In this document: positions 24,317 through 31,889 of the stretch, in pieces | Position numbering within the stretch: position 1 is the first letter of the stretch | Layout: each line of letters begins with the position of its first letter | Assembly (NCBI GenBank): GCA_900291925.1 | Contig: UWYS01000005.1 | Coordinates: forward strand, 372,001-436,000 | DNA length: 64,000 bases | Direction of reading: 5' to 3' | DNA from: Thecaphora thlaspeos | Taxonomy: Eukaryota > Basidiomycota > Ustilaginomycetes > Urocystidales > Glomosporiaceae | Made by a program: the position numbers and the translations under genes | Notes under the pieces: model-generated | Database searches by the model: none | What the model saw: the letters and a program-made list of their open reading frames with translations, nothing else | What the model was told of the DNA's origin: nothing

Positions 24317-25144
24317 CTATAGCTTGTTGAGCGGGGTTGACGTCGACGAGCCGTTCGTGCTTGACTTTGTATCGGTGGAGGGAAGCTCTTCATCGATCCA
24401 GCCGCTTCCCATGCCCGGTTCGGTGACGTTGTCAGGCACGTGAGAAAACTCCCAGTTGCGCTCTTCGCCGTGCTTGAGGAAGCCGCCCTCGCCGTTGAGT
24501 TGCTGCTTCCACGCGTCGGCCGGTCCGTTCTGTACGCGGGTGTACTTGCTGAGGGTTGCGGTGCCCACGTTGATGTCGAGGGTCCTCTGGCCGTCTCTGT
24601 CGTCGTCGAGCAGCACTCTACCCATCGCGATGAGCGTGGCGGCGTGGCTGCAGAGGAGGACGCGCTCGATGCCCAGCTCCTGGCAGCGTTGCTGTATCAG
24701 CTCGAGGATCGACCTGGCTCGAGCGTGTAGCTGAGGTATGGTCTCGCCGTGGTTCGAGGGATATAGGAGAGACGTCCAGCTAAGGGAGAGGGTGGGGACG
24801 AACTGCTTCATGGTTAGGGCGCTTGCGGGTGTGGGATGGAGGCCGGTGCCGTCGGGTGCGGGTGGAAACCATTCGGCGAGACCGGGTTCGGCGACGAGGT
24901 TGATGGCGAGAAGCTCTGCGGTGGGTACGGTGGTCTGTAGGCAGCGGTAGTAGGGCGAGCTGATGATGAGCTGGGGTTGTTGGTCTGCAGGCAGGGCGGC
25001 AAGGTATGCGGCGAGATCGCGGGCCTGGTTGAGACCGTGCGCGGTGAGGACGGGGTCGCGAGGACGTCCGGTTGGGAGGAAGAGTTCTGCACCCTGCCAG
25101 TTCATGCGGAAGCCGTGACGGCAGGTGTATATGGTGTTGAGCAT
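24317..25144 (-). CDS. Histidine phosphatase family protein, Tfc7 (TFIIIC tau55)-like
   Basis: 275 residues in one exon; the start is the ATG at 25144 (MLNTIYTCRHGFRMNWQGAE). Catalytic-site elements of the phosphoglycerate-mutase fold are all visible: RHG near residue 9, GLNQARDLAAYLAAL, IISSPYYRCLQT, GLAEWFPP, HGETIPQLHARA, and the second histidine in LLCSHAATLIAMGRVLLDD. The C-terminal part (TLSKYTRVQN, GEGGFLKHGEERNWEFSHV, PGMGSGWIDEELPS) matches what I recall of proteins related to yeast Tfc7, whose N-terminal half is this fold and which belongs to the RNA polymerase III factor TFIIIC. Whether this one is a TFIIIC subunit or a free phosphatase cannot be told from sequence. It lies head-to-head with the Dus2 fusion gene. 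Confidence 0.85.
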   Translation of the reverse strand: MLNTIYTCRHGFRMNWQGAELFLPTGRPRDPVLTAHGLNQARDLAAYLAALPADQQPQLIISSPYYRCLQTTVPTAELLAINLVAEPGLAEWFPPAPDGTGLHPTPASALTMKQFVPTLSLSWTSLLYPSNHGETIPQLHARARSILELIQQRCQELGIERVLLCSHAATLIAMGRVLLDDDRDGQRTLDINVGTATLSKYTRVQNGPADAWKQQLNGEGGFLKHGEERNWEFSHVPDNVTEPGMGSGWIDEELPSTDTKSSTNGSSTSTPLNKL

Positions 25145-25876
25145 GGTGGTGACGCGACGGTGGGAGTGGTGGTGGTGGTGATGGAGGAAGACTGGATGAG
25201 GCGAAGCAGTGAAGCGGCAGGGTGCACCGGCTACAGCGAGCCGGCCGAAGCCGGGCAGCGGGAGTCGGGAAGCGGGAGTCGGGCAGCGGGGAGGGCGCGC
25301 AAGCAACGGCCGAGAGAGGAGAAAAGGCAGCGGCAGCGTGCGCTCGCAAATCTTGCGAGTAGTTTTCTCTGAGATTAAAGGGGGATTTGTGACTTTGCCA
25401 GGCTTTCGTTTGGCGGCAGGACATTCAAACAAGACCTGGCCTCGCCGACGGCCCTCCACACGCCAGCGCCGCGCCAGCGAGCATCGGCTTGCCTAAGGCG
25501 GCGCCCTCACTCCCCACACCGCTTCCTTCCGCTTTCCTCGCTCTCTTCGACCTCTTTGCTCTCCTCTCCCCTTTCCTTTCCCCCTGCTCCCCTCCACCAT
25601 CCCCTCACCGCCTGCCTATACATAATTCCCCTTTCCCTCCGCCTTATTAGCAGGCCCATGCTCCTGTGTCCAGCTCACCTCCGCCCCCTCTTGTCCACAA
25701 CTTATCTCCACGCCATTCCACTTGCACCCCGCCCCTCTATCGCATACCGTCTCCTCACTGTCACCGCCCCCGCCCCCGCACCTCATCACCATCGACACCA
25801 AAGACGCAGCATCGTTTCCGTCGCCAGCATCTCCCCGAACAACCCCACATCTCCGCCTCTCCGCCGCCACATTGCA
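25145..25876. promoter_or_regulatory. Divergent promoter, Tfc7-like / Dus2-fusion
   Basis: About 0.5-0.7 kb, depending on which ATG starts the Dus2 fusion. The right half is strongly C/T-rich on the plus strand, as expected for the leader of the rightward gene. An in-frame ATG at 25658 would extend that protein N-terminally. Confidence 0.45.
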
Positions 25877-28213
25877 ATGCCATCCATCGCTCAGATCAAC
25901 CAGCCCCTCATGGTGGTGCCTCCGGCCAAACGCGCAAAGTACGACAACATCGCCTACGCTCACACCATGCATCACCCCACCACTGCACCCACGCCCCCTA
26001 CCGAGGACGCAGAGATGGCCCCCCTCGACCAGCCCGCCGTAGCGACCACCCACAACGAGGCCGCCACCGCCGCTGCCGACGACAGCCCCCTGCCCGCTTG
26101 CACCTCGCCCCTCCAGTACCAGAACGGCATCTTCCTCGGCCCCATGGTCCGCATCGGCACCCTCCCCACCCGCCTTCTCTCGCTCGAGTACGGCGCAGAC
26201 CTCGTCTGGGGTCCCGAGATCGTCGACCGCGCCATCATGGGCACCCAGCGCCGCGTCGATCCGCGCACCGGCGTCGTCGAGTGGCTCAAGGACGACAAGC
26301 AGGTCTTCTCCTGCCACCCCATCGAGCGACCCTACCTCGTCTTCCAGGTCGGCAGCTCCAACCCGGAGCAGGCCGCACAGGCCGTCAGCATCGTCACCGA
26401 GCACGACGACGTCGCCGCCGTCGACCTCAACTGCGGCTGCCCCAAGCCCTTTTCCACCCACGCCAGCATGGGCGCCAACCTTCTCTCGACGCCCGACCTC
26501 CTCTGCAGCATCCTCCGCGCCATGCGCAGGGCCGCCCCGCCCCACGTCGCTGTCACCTGCAAGATCCGCTTGCTGCCCACCCAGGAGGCCACCCTCGCCC
26601 TCGTCGATCAGATCGTCAAGACGGGCGCCATCGAATGCCTCACCGTCCACTGCAGGACCAAGGACATGCGTCCGCGTGAGCCCGCCCTTCTCGACCGCCT
26701 GCGCGAGATTGTCGACCACGTCGACGCCACCGCCAAGCGCCTCGGACGTACCATCCCTGTCGTCTGCAACGGCGACTGCTGGGACGCCAACGAGGCGCCC
26801 CGGATCAAGGAGCTGACCGGCGTCACGTCGACCATGATTGCGCGCGGCGCCGAGGCTAACCCGTCCTGCTTCCGCCCCGAGGGCAGTCTCAGCGTCCCCG
26901 AGACAGTTGCGCCAAAGTGGGTGCGCTACTCGCTCGCGCTAAACAACCCGGTTGGTAACACAAAGTACTGCCTCGGTCAGCTGTCCTTCAAGCCGAACGA
27001 ATCGATCCCCACCGAGGTGCAGCGGGCCCAGGGCAAGGCCAAGCAGATGTCCAAGAAGCAGCTCTCCGTCTACCGTACCGGCATCTCGCAGGCCAAGACG
27101 CAGGAGGACCTGGCCAAGGTGTTCAACATCGACCCGGCCTTTGTCCGCTCGCAGGACTTTGACTCGGTCATCCTCAAGGACCTCAAGGAGGTGCTGTCGA
27201 AGCGCGTCCGCACCGCAGCGAGCGGGTTTGACGGCCAGCGCGTCAGCACAGTCGTCAGCAACGCCAACGAGAGCAGAAGTGGCAACGACTCGACGAGCGG
27301 CGGCCAGGGCGCCGAGGACGGCCACCCCTCAGGAGACGACCTGAAGCGCGCCACCGACAAATCGCCCCAGCCCGAGTGGAAGGAGCAGCTGGCCTCGAGC
27401 ATCGGCAAGTACATCAAGGACGAAAAGTCGCTCCTCTACTACGCGCTTTCGACGGTCGAGGCGCAGACATCGGTCCACGACGCTGCCAAGCCGCACGTTC
27501 GCTACATCGTCCACCGCGGCTTTGTCAACGAGAAGCGAGACGGCGACGCATCGGGCGGCGTAGCTCCGCAGAACCCCGAGTTTGGCTCCAGTCCCTGCCT
27601 CATGACGACGACCGACGTGCGTACGCCCAAAGTGCAGCAACTGACCTCGCAGAGCGGCGTCAGGGCGCAGGGCGCGGACGGCAGCCACGGTGGCGAGGGT
27701 GAGATTGCATGGTGGATCGAGAGCGCTCAGCTGCAATTCCGTATCTCGGGCACGCTCCACGTCCTGCCCACTCAGGGTCACCCGCTGCGAAGCTCGTTCC
27801 CCTACGCACGCCTCTCACCGCCGCGCGCACCCGATTCTAGCTCGAGCGACGCCTTTGACTGGGACGGCGAACGCACTCGCATCTTCAACAAGCTCAATGC
27901 CGGGCTACTGGCGAGTTTCTGTCGACCTACACCCGGTTCGTCTCACCCGAACTTCGGACGTCTGGACGGTGCCGAACCAAAGGGCGACGTGAGCTCTCCG
28001 TGGCCATTGGAACTGCCTCAGCCCGGTAAAGAGGAGACGCAGCACCAAAAGGAGCAACTGCGCGAGAGCGAAAAGAACTTTGCTCTGCTCGTCATCGAGC
28101 CGCGTTCGGTGGATGTCGTCAACCTCGCGGACGATACGAGGACAATGTACGAACTCAAACAAGGTCACAGTGCAGCCACGGGAGAGTGGACAAAGAGGAG
28201 GGTCGTACCGTAG
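25877..28213 (+). CDS. DUS2: tRNA-dihydrouridine synthase 2 fused to a pyridoxamine-phosphate-oxidase-like FMN domain
   Basis: 778 residues from the ATG at 25877; an in-frame ATG at 25658 would add 73 residues with no acidic residue, possibly a mitochondrial presequence or simply translated C/T-rich leader. The N-terminal half is Dus2 (yeast Smm1): GIFLGPMVRIGTLPTRLLSL, VDLNCGCPKPFSTHASMGAN with the catalytic Cys of GCP, VTCKIRLLP, TVHCRTKDMRPREPA and MIARGAEANPSCF. It would reduce a uridine in the tRNA D-loop using FMN and NADPH. After a Ser/Gly-rich linker, a second module starts at PQPEWKEQLASSIGKYIKDE, with HVRYIVHRGFV, TTDVRTPKVQQLTS, IAWWIESAQLQFRISGTLHV and GEWTKRRVVP, the pattern of Alr4036-type pyridoxamine 5'-phosphate oxidase-like FMN proteins. 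The frame is uninterrupted. Yeast and human Dus2 lack this module; the human protein has a dsRBD instead. Confidence 0.9.
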   Translation: MPSIAQINQPLMVVPPAKRAKYDNIAYAHTMHHPTTAPTPPTEDAEMAPLDQPAVATTHNEAATAAADDSPLPACTSPLQYQNGIFLGPMVRIGTLPTRLLSLEYGADLVWGPEIVDRAIMGTQRRVDPRTGVVEWLKDDKQVFSCHPIERPYLVFQVGSSNPEQAAQAVSIVTEHDDVAAVDLNCGCPKPFSTHASMGANLLSTPDLLCSILRAMRRAAPPHVAVTCKIRLLPTQEATLALVDQIVKTGAIECLTVHCRTKDMRPREPALLDRLREIVDHVDATAKRLGRTIPVVCNGDCWDANEAPRIKELTGVTSTMIARGAEANPSCFRPEGSLSVPETVAPKWVRYSLALNNPVGNTKYCLGQLSFKPNESIPTEVQRAQGKAKQMSKKQLSVYRTGISQAKTQEDLAKVFNIDPAFVRSQDFDSVILKDLKEVLSKRVRTAASGFDGQRVSTVVSNANESRSGNDSTSGGQGAEDGHPSGDDLKRATDKSPQPEWKEQLASSIGKYIKDEKSLLYYALSTVEAQTSVHDAAKPHVRYIVHRGFVNEKRDGDASGGVAPQNPEFGSSPCLMTTTDVRTPKVQQLTSQSGVRAQGADGSHGGEGEIAWWIESAQLQFRISGTLHVLPTQGHPLRSSFPYARLSPPRAPDSSSSDAFDWDGERTRIFNKLNAGLLASFCRPTPGSSHPNFGRLDGAEPKGDVSSPWPLELPQPGKEETQHQKEQLRESEKNFALLVIEPRSVDVVNLADDTRTMYELKQGHSAATGEWTKRRVVP

Positions 28214-28460: not shown

Positions 28461-31400
28461 CTAACTTGACGTCTTAGCGGCCGCAGCGACGTCAGCGAAG
28501 CTCGGCGTAGGTGGCGAATCCGCTCCCTTGGATTCGGACGCAGCGACGATGGCGACAGCTTCGTCCGCGTCGTTGACGTCAACGTCTCCCTCGACGTCGG
28601 TTCGGGCCTGCTCGGCCGTCAGGGCCTTGGCGATCTCGGCGAGGATCTCGACGTCAGAACTCTCGCCGATGCTGCCGCTTCGATTGTCGCCCTGTTGCTC
28701 GAGGTAGGAAGGTGGCAACGCAGCAGTCAGATGCTCTGGACGGTGCGGACTCGTCGGGCTGACGGGAGCCGACATGTTCATCAGCCTGCTCCCGCCGCCG
28801 CCGCCGAGGAATCCGCTGCCGCCGGCCAGAAAGCTGCTTGAGCTGGCTCCCGGTCCAAAATCGGGGCCGATCTCGTGTGACATGCCGATGGGTCGCAGTG
28901 CCAAGCGTTGGCCAAAATCGCCGAGCGAAAACTTGGTGCGAAGCGATGACGGCGCTACCGTGCCGGGCAGCGAGGGTGGCGACCAGATGTCTCCGGCACC
29001 GCCAGGCATGCTGAGCCCGCCGCCGAGGGGAGGCGACGGGGCCGACCACAACGACGGAGCGTTGACGAACGAGGCAGGCGCAAAGCGTGGGCTGTTGGAT
29101 CCATACATCAACGGGTTGTTGCCTGAAGCCGTGGTTGCGGGACCGGCCAGCAGCGGCGAGCCCCGTGAAAAGGCACCAAAGGCACCAGCACCGGGCGGGA
29201 ACAGCTGAGAGCTCGTCGAGATCGTATGCGACGCAGACCCTTTTCCGGCCGAAAGGGGGAGGCGGTCCGAGCCGATCGGAGACGGTGCGGCACTAGTCGA
29301 GGCCAGTTTGGATATCACGCCGGCGCCCCCATGGCGAGCAAGTGGGAAGGCGAAGCGCGACGACGACGTCGGCGAGTGCTCCATCGAGGCGCCGACGGGA
29401 GGCGTCGGGTTGAAAGTGTGCTGCGGCTGCGGCTGCGATGTGACCGCAGACGCCGGCTTGCCGCCATGCAGCTCACTGATGGTTTCCCTGACCATGACCG
29501 GCGAGACATTGGCGGACGAGGCGGATGGGACAAACTCCTGGTTGTTGGGGTTCAAGACGGACCCGGACGTGCCCTTGCCAAACAGCTGGGGAAGTGGAAG
29601 GCTGGAGCGTCGCTCGGAACCGGAAGGCGACGGCTCTGCGCTGTAGTCATGGCCATCGGCGTTGGCGTCAGGAATGTAGCCCCATCCGTAGATCCCACCG
29701 CCGCCCATTGAGCCGAAACCGGCCGACTGTAGACCTCCATAGGATCTTTCTTGCGAGTGCATGTGCGAGAAGCCGCTAGGATACGGTGGCTCCGTCGCGG
29801 TCGGGTTAAACGGTGCATGTATGGAGATCGACCCGGCCCCTCCGTCGGGCCTCAGGTTGTTAGACGAGCGGTAGGCTCGCGCGATGTTCCCCTGAGCTCC
29901 GCCCGAGACGGAAGTCTTGAAGCCCTGGAACGGCCCAGTTGGATAGCCGCCCTGTGCAGCTGGTCCGGAAGCGGCGCGAGCATTGTGTCCATGAAGCGCT
30001 TTGCCCCCTCGACCTCCCCCCGGGCCGGAGGGGTAACCCAGACCCTGCTGCAACCCCTTTCCGCCGCCTCGGGGCAATGCTTGCGAGGGTATCATGTGGT
30101 TGGAGCTGCTGCTGCTGCTGCCGCTGCCGCGGCCACCGCCTCGGACCGCCGAGGCATGGCCACCCCTCCGTGCGTGGAGCGGCTTCGAGAGGACTTTGAT
30201 CTGCGATTGAAGTTTTGAGATCTCGGCTTCGAGAGCGGGGAGCTTTTCGTTTTGAAGGCCATCCCTATCCGCCTCCTTGCTCCGTAGGGCGGCCTCAGCG
30301 GCCTTGAGCTCTTTTTCCACCGCCGCAATCTCGGCCTCGTCGCCCTGCAGCTGAGCTTCCACCTCTGCGTCCTCGGCGTCGACCTCCCGGCTGAGCTCCT
30401 CGAGCTCCTTGGTGACAGTCGCCTCCTGCTTCTCCCAGTCGTCCAGCTCGCCCTCGATCTCCTCGACCTCGTCATGGATCGCTTTGACGTGCGCCGTCGT
30501 CTGTTTGATGGCCTCCTGCAACGCGAGGACCTTCTGCTTGCTGCGATGATCGGTCGAGCTCATCCGGTCGATATGGCGCTTGATGCTCTCGATGTCGTTC
30601 CTCAGTGCCGACTCCGCCTTGGACGTCTCCTTGCGAGCCTTGCGCAGTTCCGCAAGCACGTCGGACTTCATGCCCTCAGATGCCTCGAGCTCCGCCTGCA
30701 GGAGGGCCTTCTTCTGAACGTTGATGACTTCTGAGTCGCCGTCTGCGCTGACGGCCGTCTTGCCAAGCGGCGACGGCGAATTCGGACGCACGGCAGCTGT
30801 CGTCGACCCAATGACTGTCGAGACAACGCCCCGGCTGCTGGGTGGGAGGTCGGCGTTTCGATCTGATGGCGAGACACAAGGGGGAAGCGGGAGCGTGGTC
30901 AGCACCGCGCGTGACGGCGGAAGCGGGCGAGTGGGTCTGTCTTGCTCACCTCGGTCTGCTTTCGTCAACACCGGCAGCCTGATGTTTTCTGGCGTCCCAT
31001 CCAAGCCAGCCTTGACCTCGAATTGGACGTCGTAGTCTGACTCGGTCTGGAGGCCAAAGATGACGACGATTGCCTCGTGGCTGCCCCGCTCTCCCATCAG
31101 GACGTGTGGCCAGTCGCTGCCGTTGACGGTGACGCTCACCCTCTTCTCGAAGACGCTGACCATGTTGGAGGCCTTTGAGTCGCCCTCAAAGCCAGAGTCG
31201 GAGCCCTCGGAGCCGGAGGCGCCATCGTCGTCGATCCCGGTCGTGGCGTCGTCCGATCCGAGCCCACCGTCCTCAATTGCTCTTATTCGACCCTCGAGCG
31301 TCGCAGAGCCGTTGGACGCACGCCTGCCGGACGCTGCCGGTACCGAGGCCGGTCCCCTCAAGCGGATCTTTGTGACCTTTCGGTTGAGGCTGCGCGTCGC

Positions 31401-31889
31401 GATGAGACCCTCTGCAAGCCTGTGCATTGGCGCATCTTGCGAAGAGCCTGGTGTCGGCGAGGCGCGGGCGCTGCCGGCGCTGGACGAAGCCTCCGACGAA
31501 AGCGGCTGATGTCTCGTGTGGGGCAGCTTGGAGGGCTTGACGTTGCCGCTTGACGAGGTTGGCGGGGCGAACACTGCGGATGCCGTGGCGGATGATGGCG
31601 GAGGCGATGCAGTGCCGTTCGAAAGGGAGCGGGTCTGGAAGCGCTGCCTGAGGGGCGTCGTGGCGATGCCCGAAGGGATGGCGCTTAGCGGTGACGGATG
31701 GGTCGACCAAAGGACAGAGACCGAGACTGGAGTGAGGTCGAGCAACTCGATGCGGTAAGGGTGATGCTGGTTCATCTGCTTCAGCCTCTGCCCTGTTGCG
31801 AGAGCCAGCTTGCGCCGCGACGGTGAGTCCCGGCCGTCCCGTGAACCCTCCGCCAGCGCCTCGGACGTTGACGGCGCTGGAGAGGACAT
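28461..31889 (-). CDS. acrB: AcrB-like coiled-coil protein (ubiquitination network type)
   Basis: Start at the ATG at 31889. I propose two exons, 30950-31889 and 28461-30862 (1113 residues), around an 87-nt in-frame intron with GTGAGC donor, CTGAC branch motif and ATCAG acceptor; the unspliced frame is also open. N-terminal: YRIELLDLTPVSVSVLW, a Ser-rich stretch, then VSVTVNGSDWPHVLM with AIVVIFGLQTESDYDVQF. A coiled coil follows at about 360-538, including SKQKVLALQEAIKQTTAHVK, and then a 570-residue Gly/Ser/Pro-rich tail. The NG-x-W-x-HV strand with the KVLALQE helix is what I recall of Aspergillus AcrB, linked genetically to acriflavine resistance and ubiquitin-dependent regulation. The AcrB membrane segments are not visible here. 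Function is inferred from that resemblance. Confidence 0.75.
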   Translation of the reverse strand: MSSPAPSTSEALAEGSRDGRDSPSRRKLALATGQRLKQMNQHHPYRIELLDLTPVSVSVLWSTHPSPLSAIPSGIATTPLRQRFQTRSLSNGTASPPPSSATASAVFAPPTSSSGNVKPSKLPHTRHQPLSSEASSSAGSARASPTPGSSQDAPMHRLAEGLIATRSLNRKVTKIRLRGPASVPAASGRRASNGSATLEGRIRAIEDGGLGSDDATTGIDDDGASGSEGSDSGFEGDSKASNMVSVFEKRVSVTVNGSDWPHVLMGERGSHEAIVVIFGLQTESDYDVQFEVKAGLDGTPENIRLPVLTKADRGEQDRPTRPLPPSRAVLTTLPLPPCVSPSDRNADLPPSSRGVVSTVIGSTTAAVRPNSPSPLGKTAVSADGDSEVINVQKKALLQAELEASEGMKSDVLAELRKARKETSKAESALRNDIESIKRHIDRMSSTDHRSKQKVLALQEAIKQTTAHVKAIHDEVEEIEGELDDWEKQEATVTKELEELSREVDAEDAEVEAQLQGDEAEIAAVEKELKAAEAALRSKEADRDGLQNEKLPALEAEISKLQSQIKVLSKPLHARRGGHASAVRGGGRGSGSSSSSSNHMIPSQALPRGGGKGLQQGLGYPSGPGGGRGGKALHGHNARAASGPAAQGGYPTGPFQGFKTSVSGGAQGNIARAYRSSNNLRPDGGAGSISIHAPFNPTATEPPYPSGFSHMHSQERSYGGLQSAGFGSMGGGGIYGWGYIPDANADGHDYSAEPSPSGSERRSSLPLPQLFGKGTSGSVLNPNNQEFVPSASSANVSPVMVRETISELHGGKPASAVTSQPQPQHTFNPTPPVGASMEHSPTSSSRFAFPLARHGGAGVISKLASTSAAPSPIGSDRLPLSAGKGSASHTISTSSQLFPPGAGAFGAFSRGSPLLAGPATTASGNNPLMYGSNSPRFAPASFVNAPSLWSAPSPPLGGGLSMPGGAGDIWSPPSLPGTVAPSSLRTKFSLGDFGQRLALRPIGMSHEIGPDFGPGASSSSFLAGGSGFLGGGGGSRLMNMSAPVSPTSPHRPEHLTAALPPSYLEQQGDNRSGSIGESSDVEILAEIAKALTAEQARTDVEGDVDVNDADEAVAIVAASESKGADSPPTPSFADVAAAAKTSS

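Follow-up and report, generated by a model that had tools for sequence, protein, structure and literature searches.

A Dus2 tRNA-dihydrouridine synthase fused to an Alr4036-type split-barrel domain in Thecaphora thlaspeos

The fusion gene and its two domains

A 64,000-nucleotide stretch of the Thecaphora thlaspeos genome (the window; assembly GCA_900291925.1, contig UWYS01000005.1, positions 372,001 to 436,000) contains a gene in which the tRNA-dihydrouridine synthase Dus2 is joined, in a single reading frame, to a split-barrel domain of the PF12766 (Alr4036/COG5135) family. The fusion is real, and its architecture was already known. The sequence-only reading that drew attention to the gene had not known of such a fusion, but the architecture has been in print since 2022, when a Dus2-PyrOx fusion of Melanopsichium pennsylvanicum was described (Lombard et al., 2022; PMC9775027). 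Added here are the boundary of the clade, the unfused relatives, an argument from residues against the published loss of flavin mononucleotide (FMN) binding, and a case against a role as pyridoxine (pyridoxamine) phosphate (PNP) oxidase. The features are listed in window coordinates, with residues numbered from the first of two in-frame starts.

25658..25876, plus strand: possible N-terminal extension from the upstream ATG at 25658 (73 residues, 8 Arg/Lys, no Asp/Glu), weakly presequence-like
25877..28213, plus strand: Dus2-PF12766 fusion gene, short form of 778 residues, from ATG 25877
25919..25945, plus strand: basic patch PPAKRAKYD just past the second start, the pattern occurring in 18/24 fused proteins
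26135..26920, plus strand: Dus catalytic TIM-barrel domain, Pfam match, residues 160-421
26429..26446, plus strand: NCGCPK motif, by sequence pattern
27224..27361, plus strand: Ser/Gly-rich linker, residues 523-568, model confidence <50, with short shared motifs DGQR and DGH
27359..28210, plus strand: FMN-binding-type split-barrel domain, PF12766/COG5135 family, by profile and fold comparison
27500..27517, plus strand: RYIVHR, with the near-invariant basic pair R615 and R620, by conservation
27608..27631, plus strand: TTDVRTPK, with T651, D653, R655 and K658, by conservation
27710..27742, plus strand: WW....QFR, with W685, W686, Q693 and R695, by conservation

As had been claimed from the letters alone, the frame is uninterrupted, opening at 25556 and ending with the TAG at 28211-28213; the closest upstream in-frame stop is the TAA at 25376. 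The ATG at 25658 gives 851 residues and that at 25877, the start first noted, gives 778. An intron or stop near 27250-27370 had been named among the findings that would refute the fusion. The frame is open there, none of the few types of strong splice-donor pattern scanned for was found in 27151-27500, and the G+C content of third codon positions (GC3) is 0.67-0.94 from 25958 to the stop codon, linker included.

The Dus profile of Pfam matched residues 160-421 of the 851-residue form at 3.3e-43 (148.4 bits against a cut-off of 20.4), and the Dus2 motifs named in the sequence-only reading (NCGCPK, HCRTKDMRPREP and ARGAEANPSCF) were all found in the translated frame. NCGCPK is present in 24/24 fused proteins, and its cysteine is presumably the catalytic residue known from Dus enzymes. 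Both the TIM barrel and the helical domain of Dus2 are present. Among solved structures, human DUS2 was the closest (1.3e-54, vs. 8.3e-18 for bacterial DusC and 2.9e-15 for bacterial DusB), eukaryotic Dus1, Dus3 and Dus4 lying outside this comparison. From family membership we infer that this half is an ordinary Dus2, which would convert U20 of tRNA to dihydrouridine (D20) with FMN and NADPH. Human DUS2 (4xp7) has a double-stranded RNA-binding domain (dsRBD) on its C-terminal side, where the T. thlaspeos protein has the split barrel.

PF12766 matched residues 572-703 at 4.9e-21, with 75.6 bits for the whole protein and 77.2 bits for the C-terminal half alone, the search that the sequence-only reading had recommended; the gathering score is 26. 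The proposed union of Dus2 with an Alr4036-like domain is borne out by these profile matches. Each half searched alone fell into the same Pfam family as in the whole protein, and structure prediction, which had been recommended for both halves, recovered both folds, the second being the FMN-binding split barrel of the Alr4036/COG5135 family. The FMN-binding COG5135 protein Npun_F5749 (2i51) shares this fold over nearly its whole chain at 26% identity, and both have R..R, TDxRxxK and QFR motifs. Npun_F5749 is a free-standing bacterial protein, whereas the fused domain scored 45.8 bits (half) and 40.2 bits (whole) against the Npun_F5749 equivalog TIGR04026, under its cut-off of 220 bits.

The linker is 50-64 residues long in the 16/24 fused proteins from which a pattern could cut it, the pattern missing the other eight. 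The inter-domain motifs DGQR (17/24), DGH (20/24) and SPQP(E/D)WK (23/24) are common to the relatives, and thus the inter-domain sequence appears to be translated and under selection. The M. pennsylvanicum protein (P0013) has both families in this order and, across 99% of the C-terminal query, 77% identity, but unlike the T. thlaspeos protein it lacks DGQR and DGH, and it also lacks SPQP(E/D)WK.

Distribution and origin

A search with residues 560-851 among proteins of 0.55-1.75 times the full length, limits that favour fused proteins, found 23 relatives. The same domain order, which the sequence-only reading had suggested seeking elsewhere in Ustilaginomycotina, occurs in 23/23, and since both profile scores are also far above the curated cut-offs, the fusion is not a matter of chance. 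Organism names are attached to 13/23 (Pseudozyma, Thecaphora, Testicularia, Kalmanozyma, Sporisorium, Melanopsichium, Moesziomyces and Ustilago), all of them smut-type fungi; two checked for taxonomy belong to Urocystidales and Ustilaginales, both Ustilaginomycetes. The nearest relative, from Pseudozyma flocculosa, is 87% identical in the C-terminal part and, among the matches listed, 82% in the Dus part.

A search with the domain only, among proteins of 0.55-1.75 times its length, gave 36 matches: 33 without a Dus domain and three (P0025, P0044, P0045) that are incomplete or damaged versions of the fused protein. P0044, labelled Cichorium endivia, holds part of the fused domain and probably comes from fungal DNA contaminating a plant assembly. 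The argument for unfused relatives is carried by the 12/33 with organism names, including Tilletia, Sympodiomycopsis, Ceraceosorus, Calocera, Ceratobasidium, Tricholoma, Clavulina and Exidia. Among the 21 unnamed proteins several are short metagenomic calls, maybe exon pieces, and ten (P0033-P0039, P0041-P0043) are truncated at a common point, probably an intron boundary met in metagenomic gene calling. Sympodiomycopsis kandeliae and Ceraceosorus guamensis have the unfused domain and Dus2 on two contigs that differ in length, so the two are not neighbours there. Two Tilletia horrida proteins (P0029, P0030) have PF12766 only, yet bear the public name 'tRNA-dihydrouridine synthase 2', apparently transferred from the smut fusion.

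In a Dus2 tree of 47 rows, its unfused rows hand-chosen from 120 listed of 1567 matches, a branch with support 99/97 sets the 24 fused proteins apart. Fifteen unfused proteins adjoin them, the named ones being Malassezia and Exobasidiomycetes (taxonomy checked for Ceraceosorus and Malassezia), apart from P0089, a fern record. One of the 48 rows chosen, P0062, was left out as a tandem partial Dus2; this Puccinia striiformis record of 638 residues carries Dus2 sequence twice in tandem, with partial repetition, which may reflect a fault of annotation or assembly. A first tree, which gave three changes, at least two of them forced, was discarded: an over-strict motif had lost 21/54 rows, and one protein scored as unfused, P0061, is probably incomplete, its contig having only 1685 bases. 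The fusion is conserved and lineage-specific across two orders of Ustilaginomycetes, with one origin on the Dus2 tree. Read most simply, the smuts gained it once.

In the 20.6 Mb assembly of 32 contigs that contains the window, PF12766 has a single match, the fused copy. A histidine phosphatase (PF00300) gene (window 24317-25147, minus strand) lies head to head with the fusion gene, and a 1142-residue open frame (28461-31889, minus strand), matching only DUF1664 below threshold, lies tail to tail with it. A passage in PMC3248468 places a dihydrouridine synthase gene beside an ASF1 gene near the smut a locus. A link to the mating-type locus was rejected: in this genome Dus and ASF1 are paired on contig C8 (Dus pieces 666-667 kb, ASF1 665 kb, STE3 360 kb), whereas the fusion gene is on C5.

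Start codons and possible targeting

Position -3 is C at the upstream ATG 25658 and G at the second ATG 25877, an arrangement that would permit leaky scanning. The basic patch PPAKRAKYD resembles a nuclear localization signal of the c-Myc type; the 6/24 fused proteins without the pattern comprise four close variants and two models that start downstream of the patch. An acid-poor extension precedes MPS(I/V)A in 10/24 fused proteins (the T. thlaspeos protein and 9/23 relatives). The ten pooled have 628 residues with 70 Arg/Lys and 5 Asp/Glu, an eleventh (P0004), with 10 acidic residues, standing outside the pool; the remaining 13 models begin at or after the second methionine. Eight of the ten have a common N terminus (0/200 shuffles as good for each), while that of T. 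thlaspeos resembles the others weakly (7/200) and that of P0003 does not (50/200). In 0/10 did helical amphipathicity exceed that of shuffles, which argues against a presequence. Read in its other two frames, this DNA is acid-poor as well (2 and 1 Asp/Glu), and so its C-richness accounts for much of the effect.

Human DUS2L is named as the writer of dihydrouridine in mitochondrial tRNAs in a passage of PMC12501074, and a review mentions a putative D20 enzyme located in human and murine mitochondria (PMC9176250). Dual targeting would thus be reasonable; the T. thlaspeos extension is a weak candidate for a mitochondrial presequence.

Cofactor, function and meaning

A part for the fused domain in vitamin B6 synthesis was rejected. 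Neither PF01243 nor PF10590 matched it at E up to 1, and R-x-H, the C-terminal substrate motif of PNP oxidases, does not occur in its final 60 residues; in these respects it differs from PNPOx/Pdx3. The genome's true PNP oxidase is encoded by another gene, on the contig of the fusion gene but some 450 kb from it, which matches PF01243 and PF10590, has an RLHDR motif and finds its closest solved structures among PNP oxidases (1.6e-44 to 1ci0). The suggested link between vitamin B6 and tRNA modification is accordingly unsupported. The frame of this PNP oxidase (L011:1309-2163, minus strand) likewise begins with a stretch that has Arg but no acidic residues, after which comes an internal methionine; PF10590 is matched to position 26 of 42 only, and an intron seems to separate off the last exon.

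Flavin-site-type residues, among them TTDVRTPK, presumably a flavin-phosphate-type motif, are retained in fused and unfused PF12766 relatives alike, and on sequence and predicted fold the second domain looks FMN-competent. Of the earlier proposal of two flavin domains in one protein, the presence of both modules stands, FMN competence being argued from sequence and fold only. Split-barrel flavoproteins work as homodimers that hold FMN where the two chains meet. We consider it probable that one chain comprises an ordinary Dus2, a flexible linker and a complete split barrel that very likely still binds FMN and acts as dimerizer and second redox site, not as PNP oxidase. Since such barrels are homodimeric, the fusion would pair two Dus2 subunits, giving one dimer with four flavins.

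Several points weigh against this. Lombard et al. (2022) argue from their model of the M. pennsylvanicum protein for a hydrophobic pocket that would exclude FMN (PMC9775027). The profile comparison of the fused domain with the genome's true PNP oxidase was not significant (E 0.12), so residue roles borrowed from PNP oxidases are uncertain, and transfer of residues through that alignment was dropped. The full-length model has a predicted template modelling score of 0.54, so the relative placement of the domains in it is tentative. In a domain tree (58 rows, long branches) the fused domains are not one group; it requires two changes, 19% of bootstraps giving one, and an earlier fusion with a later split may be compatible with it.

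The alternative of Lombard et al. (2022) is that the barrel lost its flavin and took on the task of holding tRNA, in the manner of the animal Dus2 dsRBD; they infer no FMN binding and possible RNA binding from a model with a hydrophobic cleft and a separate positively charged pocket (PMC9775027). C-terminal modules, some RNA-binding, have been added in other Dus2 lineages too. We regard this as unlikely, since conservation of the flavin-site-type residues would be unexpected after cofactor loss and favours FMN, and since an interface FMN site would be absent from a single-chain model. The net charge of the 295-residue domain, -3, gives no support, although a local basic patch is still possible. 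A flavoenzyme with its own unrelated substrate, the fusion merely coupling expression of two independent enzymes, would fit the flexible linker and the Dus-free relatives with the same residues in other basidiomycetes. We find it distinctly unlikely, as the shared DGQR and DGH exceed the needs of a mere tether and we know of no substrate for the PF12766 family; a literature search found no paper on PF12766 in fungi, Alr4036 with pyridoxamine, or COG5135. An artefact, in which faulty assembly or an overlooked intron or stop has joined two adjacent genes, is very improbable: 23 relatives, drawn from several genomes and metagenomes, have this order, most of them share linker motifs, GC3 is high through the linker, and the strong donor patterns scanned for are lacking at the junction.

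The reading of a dimeric, four-flavin Dus2 can be extended as a long shot: the split-barrel FMN might sense redox state or feed electrons to the Dus flavin, linking D20 formation to cell redox, with alternative starts sending the long form to mitochondria and the short form, through its basic patch, to the nucleus. This clean, lineage-wide natural fusion could reveal what PF12766 proteins do and whether Dus2 profits from dimerization or a second flavin, and it opens the published inference of no FMN binding to a simple test.
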